From Aliarcobacter cibarius (GTDB lineage: Bacteria > Campylobacterota > Campylobacteria > Campylobacterales > Arcobacteraceae), in contig NZ_CP054051.1 of NCBI RefSeq assembly GCF_013372265.1, forward strand, positions 632,263-696,262: a DNA stretch of 64,000 nucleotides, written 5' to 3'. The notes beneath the pieces are model-generated. The model did no database searches. It saw only the letters and a list, made by a program, of their open reading frames with translations, and was not told the DNA's origin. This document shows positions 22,763 to 25,387 of this stretch, in pieces; the first letter of the stretch is position 1, and each line of letters starts with the position of its first letter. A program made the position numbers and the translations under genes.

Positions 22763-23134
22763 TCACTTTGTTTGCTTTATTTTTTTTATTCTCTGATAAT
22801 ATTCTTGTCTATAAGCTTTTAACTCTTCTTTTTTTTTCTCTCTATATTCTTTATCATATCTTAATCTTTTTTCTTTGTTTTGCTCGTAATACTCTTTTTT
22901 ATCTTCTTTGTACTTTTCGATTTTTTGTACTATTGATTCTTTTCTTTTATCAACATACTCTTTTTGTTTATGAGCTATTTCTTTAATTTTAATTAAAAAA
23001 TCACCATTTTCAAATTCTGCTTGATAATCATATACTTGCTTTTTTATTTTACTCTTTTGATAATAAGCCTTCTTTTTTTGCTTATGAGCTAGAAAGTTTT
23101 GTTCTCGTCTTTTTTTTAACTCTTCTAAATTCAT
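22763..23134 (-). CDS. Small, highly charged coiled-coil protein of unknown function
   Basis: A 123-residue protein with extreme Lys/Glu/Tyr content and repeated 'KEYREKKKEEL'-type segments, predicted as one long helix. I do not recognise it. It starts 15 bases after flgG and ends 7 bases before the SPOR-like gene, so all three should be one transcript. Its size and helical nature recall the export chaperone FliJ, which is otherwise missing here, but no FliJ motif is visible and the net positive charge is unusually high. Confidence 0.55.
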   Translation of the reverse strand: MNLEELKKRREQNFLAHKQKKKAYYQKSKIKKQVYDYQAEFENGDFLIKIKEIAHKQKEYVDKRKESIVQKIEKYKEDKKEYYEQNKEKRLRYDKEYREKKKEELKAYRQEYYQRIKKIKQTK

Positions 23135-24102: not shown

Positions 24103-24474
24103 ATGAAGATTCTAATAGTTGATGATAGCTCTACAATGAGAAGAATTATCGGAAATGTAGTTATGCAATTAGGATTTGGAAAAGATAATTTTGATGAAGC
24201 TGAAGATGGTGTAAAAGCTTGGAAACTTCTTACTGAAGCTCATTATGATGTTATTTTAACAGATTGGAATATGCCAAATATGAATGGACTTGAGCTTGTA
24301 AAAAAAATAAGAAGTGAGGGAACACATCAGAAAACTCCGATTATTATGATTACAACTGAAGGTGGAAAAAATGAGGTTATAACTGCTTTAAAATCGGGAG
24401 TTAATAACTATATAGTTAAACCGTTTAGTGCAGAAGTTCTAAAAGAAAAGCTTGATGGAGTTTTAAAAAAATAA
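24103..24474 (+). CDS. cheY: Chemotaxis response regulator CheY
   Basis: A 123-residue single receiver domain. Acid pocket Asp7-Asp8, phosphoacceptor Asp54 (LTDWNMPNMNG), the conserved Thr in MITTEGG and Lys106 (VKPFS) are all present. When phosphorylated by CheA it binds the flagellar switch to change rotation. It is directly followed by cheZ (13 bases), so the signal and its phosphatase are co-expressed. Confidence 0.96.
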   Translation: MKILIVDDSSTMRRIIGNVVMQLGFGKDNFDEAEDGVKAWKLLTEAHYDVILTDWNMPNMNGLELVKKIRSEGTHQKTPIIMITTEGGKNEVITALKSGVNNYIVKPFSAEVLKEKLDGVLKK

Positions 24475-24487
24475 ATAAGGTTTTATT

Positions 24488-25387
24488 ATGAGTATGAGTC
24501 AAGAAGAAATCGAAGCTTTAATGAATGGTTTAGATATCGTTGAAGATAAATCTGAACCTGAGGCAGTAGAGATTGAAGAACCTATAAAAGTTGACACAAA
24601 AGAGATTGAAGAATTAATTTCTCAGACAAAAGATATTGATGCTGCTAATGAAGATAATAGAGTATTAACTAATACAGATGAAATAGAGAATCTTTTAAAA
24701 GATATTGAGTCATCGTCTGTTTTTGAAAATGAAGAAGATGTAAAAGAAGATTTTCAAGAAAATATAAAATATGAAGATTTTTCTGAGCAAAAGAATCAAA
24801 TAAGCGAGGATGATATTGTGAAAAATTGGACATCATCTAAGATAAAAGAAGGAATTATTCCAACTCCTGCGCATAGTGATACTAAAGTAGTGAGTCAGTT
24901 AACTCAAGTAGCAAATGATTCTGAAGAAAAAGTTTCAAAGATATTCGATGTATTAAGTTTAGCTTTAGATAACAATAATGTAGTTAGAAATAATTTTAAA
25001 GAGTGCGAAAATTATTTAGAATCACAGGCATCTTTATTAAATAGTTTGAGTAAAAAGTTTCCTAATATTAAAGTCTTTTCTGAACATTTAGAAAATATGA
25101 ATAAGATAAATGAATCAATTGGAAATTTAAAAAATGTATTAAATGATGAAGATAACTCTATATTCCAAGCTATGGAGTTAATGCAGTTTAATGATATAAA
25201 CAGACAAAAAATAGAGAGAGTTATGTTTGTAATCAGAAAATTATCTCTATATTTAAACAATCTTTTTGAAGATGGAGAAAATACAAAGTTTACACCTGTT
25301 GCTAAACATATCCATGGTGATAATAATGATGATTTAGCTGGAGATGATTTAGATAAATTAATAGAAGAATTTTCAAAAAATAGTTAG
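24488..25387 (+). CDS. cheZ: CheZ-type CheY phosphatase with three FliM-like CheY-binding motifs
   Basis: A 299-residue remote CheZ. The phosphatase helix reads AMELMQFNDINRQKIERVM (228-246); Asp236 and Gln240 keep the D-x3-Q spacing of the E. coli catalytic pair D143/Q147. The C-terminus DDLDKLIEEF resembles the CheY-binding tail. Unlike E. coli CheZ it has a ~130-residue acidic N-terminal region. This begins SMSQEEIEALMNGL, very like the FliM N-peptide (SQxEIDALLNG), and repeats the core at 38-44 (KEIEELI) and 64-70 (DEIENLL). CheY-P docking by these motifs is inferred. Confidence 0.85.
   Translation: MSMSQEEIEALMNGLDIVEDKSEPEAVEIEEPIKVDTKEIEELISQTKDIDAANEDNRVLTNTDEIENLLKDIESSSVFENEEDVKEDFQENIKYEDFSEQKNQISEDDIVKNWTSSKIKEGIIPTPAHSDTKVVSQLTQVANDSEEKVSKIFDVLSLALDNNNVVRNNFKECENYLESQASLLNSLSKKFPNIKVFSEHLENMNKINESIGNLKNVLNDEDNSIFQAMELMQFNDINRQKIERVMFVIRKLSLYLNNLFEDGENTKFTPVAKHIHGDNNDDLAGDDLDKLIEEFSKNS

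Follow-up and report, generated by a model that had tools for sequence, protein, structure and literature searches.

We analyzed a 64,000-nucleotide stretch of DNA (hereafter, the window) in which flagellar genes surround a cheY-cheZ pair separated by 13 bases (Table 1). The cheY product matches the Pfam Response_reg family at 3e-30, and the AAGG tetranucleotide at 24477-24480 supports the ATG at 24488 as the cheZ start codon. The cheZ product was recognized by the NCBIfam model NF041271 (Phos_CheZ; E 1.7e-33, 116 bits over 240 positions) with a score that does not reach the equivalog cut-off of 350 bits, a threshold passed in just 27 of 397 genomes of the phylum; the Pfam CheZ model PF04344 yielded no match to it. 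Matches to NF041271 occurred in 97 of the 104 family genomes, while five genomes of 1.3-1.5 Mb (G036-G039 and G070) returned no CheZ match and possibly represent non-flagellated lineages. The window protein is probably an orthodox CheZ from the Arcobacteraceae, most likely from the genus Aliarcobacter. Beside the flagellar genes, a minus-strand 123-aa ORF rich in lysine and glutamate (22763-23134) has no Pfam match.

Table 1. Features of the cheY-cheZ locus, in window coordinates
Feature	Coordinates	Strand	Remarks
cheY (CheYz)	24103..24474	+	123 aa; would be both the substrate of CheZ and its docking partner
AAGG, ribosome-binding-like	24477..24480	+	seven bases 5' of the cheZ ATG; kept in relatives
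cheZ	24488..25387	+	299 aa, ATG start; stop codon included in coordinates
Motif 1, residues 3-14, MSQEEIEALMNG	24494..24529	+	FliM-N-like, phylum-conserved; AF2 helix 5-13
Motif 2, residues 36-46, DTKEIEELISQ	24593..24625	+	linker copy; AF2 helix 38-48
Motif 3, residues 62-73, NTDEIENLLKDI	24671..24706	+	linker copy; AF2 helix 63-74
Catalytic helical hairpin, residues 132-261	24881..25270	+	AF2 helices 132-190 and 195-261
Catalytic D236-x3-Q240	25193..25207	+	both residues unchanged throughout an alignment of 65 Campylobacterota CheZ; the segment lines up with FQDLTGQ of E. coli CheZ
Motif 4, residues 284-295, AGDDLDKLIEEF	25337..25372	+	C-terminal CheY-binding-type peptide by sequence; AF2 helix 287-297

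The first-pass annotation of this DNA had described an intact catalytic Asp236-x3-Gln240 near the CheZ C-terminus, and both residues are indeed in place and unvaried across the aligned proteins. AlphaFold2, run on an input of 65 sequences, predicted the long hairpin that carries them, the presumed half of a four-helix bundle, with pLDDT values of 80-97 from residue 141 onward. Profile alignment to E. coli CheZ (1kmi) gave an E value of 0.7; the fold matches listed for the model were generic long-helix proteins, with 1kmi not among them. CheY-P phosphatase activity has been shown for the H. pylori orthologue, according to work cited in PMC11237671. Besides the hairpin, the model contains five short helices (5-13, 38-48, 63-74, 107-120, and 287-297), so that, apart from helix 107-120, the remaining predicted helices are exactly four FliM-like motifs, each a short helix within a disordered tail. 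Helix 107-120 (24806-24847), N-terminal to the catalytic hairpin, is conserved in the genus, with an invariant Trp114 (DDIVKNWTSSKI).

The protein, as judged from its sequence, is a CheZ with repeated FliM-like peptides in four copies, two of them in an acidic linker of roughly 90 residues. Three of these, that is, the FliM-N-like N-terminus (residues 1-15 read M1-SMSQEEIEALMNGL-15), K38EIEELI44, and D64EIENLL70, lie at the residues where the first-pass annotation had placed them; it had overlooked the fourth (residues 284-295), which corresponds to the tail by which E. coli CheZ is known to bind CheY. The CheZ peptides conform to the pattern S-x-x-[DE]-[ILV]-[DE]-x-[LI]-[LIM] preceded by a hydrophobic residue. 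For comparison, the N-terminus of the FliM encoded in the same genome (1,944,285-1,945,253) reads MAEFLSQDEIDALL and, in the register of the linker copies, LSQDEIDALLDIAE. Motif 2 is devoid of a hydrophobic residue at +7, and most congeners carry K or Q at its −2 position.

Similarity searches in both directions upheld the likeness of the CheZ N-terminus to the FliM peptide. The FliM model run against the organism's own genome (E<=10) retrieved FliM, FliY, FliN, and two stretches of the window CheZ, one at the N-terminus (E 0.096) and a weak one from residue 62, that is, at motif 3 (E 5.95), and nothing else. These two matches cover only model positions 3-40 and 4-47, the FliM middle and C-terminal domains being absent from CheZ. 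Reciprocally, a profile of 17 CheZ N-termini searched against the PDB (177,635 sequences) gave the Salmonella FliM N-terminus as its single match (E 0.041). This comparison of N-termini spanned Campylobacterota CheZ and the E. coli CheZ in the PDB, the latter unmatched by the Campylobacterota profile. The equivalent C-terminal CheZ profile returned nothing from the PDB but short chance matches, none to a CheZ. A degenerate DNA scan of the genome for the full N-terminal pattern pointed, in flagellar context, just to FliM and CheZ, and the FliY of the window does not carry it. Three further scan matches read as unrelated proteins, and one more (L138) had no matching frame.

To what extent this arrangement is shared was read from CheZ proteins collected from Campylobacterota genomes (n = 100). 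FliM-like peptides occur at both the N- and the C-terminus of all of them (100/100), Helicobacter included. The N-terminus takes the form M[SG]M[ST]QE[ED]IE[AS]LM or MTQEEL[DN]x[LM][LIM] (two with an extra Met before it), and the C-terminus that of a [DE]-[ILM]-x-x-L-[IL] peptide, which in other Campylobacterota reads ASxDDIEALIASFG. The phylum-wide N-terminal motif rules out a one-off oddity of the window CheZ. As for the linker, a strict core was found 45 times in 31 Arcobacteraceae CheZ vs 1.47 +/- 1.18 times in shuffled linkers, and not once in 26 CheZ of other families, whose linkers are far shorter and for which the chance expectation is likewise none. With a relaxed core, the count rose to 75 in 36 Arcobacteraceae CheZ against 5.7 +/- 2.3 in shuffles, a thirteen-fold excess that persisted when redundancy was filtered more strictly (47 cores against 3.6 for a set of 24 proteins, and 15 against 1.3 for a set of 7). 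Since these core patterns were picked after part of the sequences had been inspected, we added a fixed-query test that scores linkers by BLOSUM62 to the FliM core SQEEIDALL, and this gave 58 instances vs 8.1 +/- 2.8 at a threshold of 18.

Copies in the linker range from 0 to 6 per Arcobacteraceae CheZ, with no core in 2 of the 36 linkers. Among the CheZ read, the extra linker copies are peculiar to this family, and their number varies. The layout, for which the first-pass annotation knew of no described precedent, is distinctive in its linker copies and ordinary in its N-terminal peptide. The CheZ of L075 has, at residues about 28-90, a linker of near-repeats (IDDLLAGIDGIVD), which suggests that the motif series grew by duplication. 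Some Arcobacteraceae (L220-L228, e.g., L220, L221, L223, and L224) also encode a second, short CheZ-like protein of 111-163 aa with a D-x3-Q segment and the C-terminal peptide; it retains an N-terminal MTQEELDALM in some genera and lacks this peptide in others. No such second protein was found in the window's own genome.

Within the genus, the motif copies are conserved islands amid a fast-changing acidic linker. Across 30 congeners, mean column entropy was 0.14 bits for motif 1 (residues 3-14), 0.53 bits for motif 2, 1.2 bits for motif 3 (with I66, L69, and L70 nearly invariant), and 0.24 bits for the C-terminal motif 4, as compared with 2.05-2.5 bits in the spacer linker flanking the motifs. 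Conservation of the EIExL cores in relatives, on which the first-pass annotation had staked its proposal, is borne out by both the excess of linker cores and the low column entropies; at the family level, these same two results rule out chance composition of the acidic linker. For motif 1, the 0.14 bits and the sole PDB match to FliM place the resemblance beyond chance. The linker of the window CheZ taken alone says less. Motifs 2 and 3 score 16 and 19, respectively, to SQEEIDALL, values that the maximum of shuffles of that same linker matched in about 34% and 7-17% of cases; these two motifs are within chance in the single protein, and the family comparison carries the case. The flanks of the cores add to it. 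Positions −5, −4, and +7 lay outside the relaxed search, which used six core positions; among the 75 relaxed linker cores, −5 is hydrophobic in 57 (23% expected from shuffled matches), −4 is S, T, N, or D in 62 (39% expected), and +7 is hydrophobic in 43 (22% expected). Binomial values for these flanks are too optimistic because the instances are related by descent.

We next consider the presumed ligand. The window CheY is 48% identical to E. coli CheY and keeps K92, Y106, V108, and K119, with I95 replaced by V (E. coli numbering); these five positions belong to the FliM face in the CheY-FliM complex. One and the same face of E. coli CheY receives both FliM and the C-terminal CheZ peptide (PMC3774744), and the C-terminus of Campylobacterota CheZ follows the pattern of that peptide. 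On the simplest reading, each of the four helices would dock CheY-P, the C-terminal one in the service of catalysis. For a docking model we used the cheY-cheZ read-through of a relative, L018, with the cheY stop read as Gly, as the two genes are out of frame in the window and in frame in three relatives. L018 CheY, closely related to that of the window, models as a CheY, its best PDB match being H. pylori CheY (3gwg, 1.4 A). From a shallow alignment (24 rows) and with CheY unphosphorylated, the three N-terminal motifs came out helical at pLDDT about 45-60 (10-residue blocks) and a pTM of 0.53. The helices thus form in the model, whereas at such pLDDT values the CheY contact envisaged for each motif is not confidently predicted, a result compatible with docking as well as with its absence.

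We favor, with somewhat better than balanced confidence, a multivalent CheY-P tether built on an ordinary CheZ. Beyond the motifs themselves, their conservation, distribution, and predicted helicity, and the intact catalytic residues, we infer CheY binding by each copy, multivalency, and any competition with FliM. A short amphipathic CheY-P-tethering helix would have been multiplied in Arcobacteraceae CheZ. The D236/Q240 hairpin would hydrolyse CheY-P as E. coli CheZ does, with the C-terminal peptide as the main tether, and the N-terminal peptide and the two linker copies, strung along a flexible acidic leash, would be additional sites where CheY-P could dock weakly by its alpha4-beta5-alpha5 face. 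A CheZ dimer could thereby present up to eight sites, raising the local concentration of CheY-P, which would be passed to the catalytic site. Against this reading weigh the low confidence of the docking model, the phosphatase function reported for H. pylori CheZ deprived of residues 1-39, the deviations of motif 2 at +7 and −2, and the two Arcobacteraceae linkers with no core. The added role of the N-terminal copies may be to concentrate CheY-P locally, to buffer it, to compete with FliM, or to bind another receiver. In the first-pass proposal, a phosphatase with several switch-type docking peptides would raise its affinity multivalently or compete with the motor; the conserved peptides sustain its premise, and competition we keep just as a hypothesis.

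Data from H. pylori bear on how these roles may be shared out. In PMC11237671, deletion of CheZ residues 1-39 reportedly leaves phosphatase function unaffected, deletion of the C-terminus reportedly abolishes it, and the function of the N-terminal region is described as unknown. These deletions would fit a division in which the C-terminal peptide serves catalysis and residues 1-39 are dispensable. The first deletion would also suit a scheme, which we hold to be unlikely, where the C-terminal peptide alone docks CheY for catalysis and the N-terminal and linker copies bind CheV, CheA-REC, another CheY paralogue, ChePep, or a polar scaffold, for localisation or cross-talk; Arcobacter genomes do hold further CheY copies (PMC9321776). 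Against it, the FliM core is common to all four peptides, which makes CheY the simplest ligand. Moreover, a 2015 H. pylori study reportedly assigned the polar localisation determinant of CheZ to its central domain. Improbable in our judgment, the N-terminal copies could instead act as a decoy or buffer that keeps CheY-P from FliM without faster hydrolysis and so sets the motor-switching threshold, an idea in line with both the closer resemblance of motif 1 to FliM than to the CheZ C-terminal tail and the catalytic dispensability of the H. pylori N-terminal region. That the linker copies are ligand-free by-products of an acidic low-complexity linker, with the terminal peptides alone mattering, agrees with the chance-level scores in the window CheZ and is nonetheless very improbable given the thirteen-fold family excess, the FliM-like flanks, and the low entropy beside a rapidly changing spacer.

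Returning to the multivalent tether, a bolder extension, which we regard as possible yet tentative, is that the CheZ of the Arcobacteraceae acts as a multivalent trap for CheY-P. The number of its FliM-mimic copies, about 2 to 8 in each chain with the terminal ones included, would then be an evolvable dial setting the strength of its competition with the motor switch for CheY-P. The phosphatase could then shape motor bias by a possible second route besides catalysis, and in the variable series of linker copies nature would have run its own experiment on holding a diffusible signal by several tethers at once. The FliM-type reading also gives the H. pylori CheZ N-terminal region, within the much-studied chemotaxis of this phylum, a concrete candidate ligand. 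Our literature search, which covered few subscription papers and is correspondingly weak as evidence, found no account of FliM-like peptides at the N-terminus or in the linker of CheZ; a FliM-like peptide on CheZ is already known from the E. coli C-terminus, and the N-terminal and linker copies may be new.

Collectively, the window CheZ relates to three known systems. With E. coli CheZ (PDB 1kmi) it shares the helical hairpin, the D-x3-Q pair, and a C-terminal CheY-binding peptide (ASQDQVDDLLDSLGF in E. coli), but E. coli CheZ has one known docking peptide, whereas the window protein displays four FliM-like peptides and the long acidic linker. The H. pylori-type CheZ (NF041271) is alike in its N-terminal MTQEELDALM, catalytic pair, and C-terminal DDIEALIASFG, and unlike in its linker, which in the CheZ from outside the Arcobacteraceae runs for about 17-41 aa past residue 20 and holds no further copy. 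Finally, the peptides follow the [hydrophobic]-S-Q-x-E-I-D-x-L-L pattern of the FliM N-terminal CheY-binding peptide, although, in contrast to FliM, they sit on a phosphatase lacking the FliM middle domain and C-terminus.
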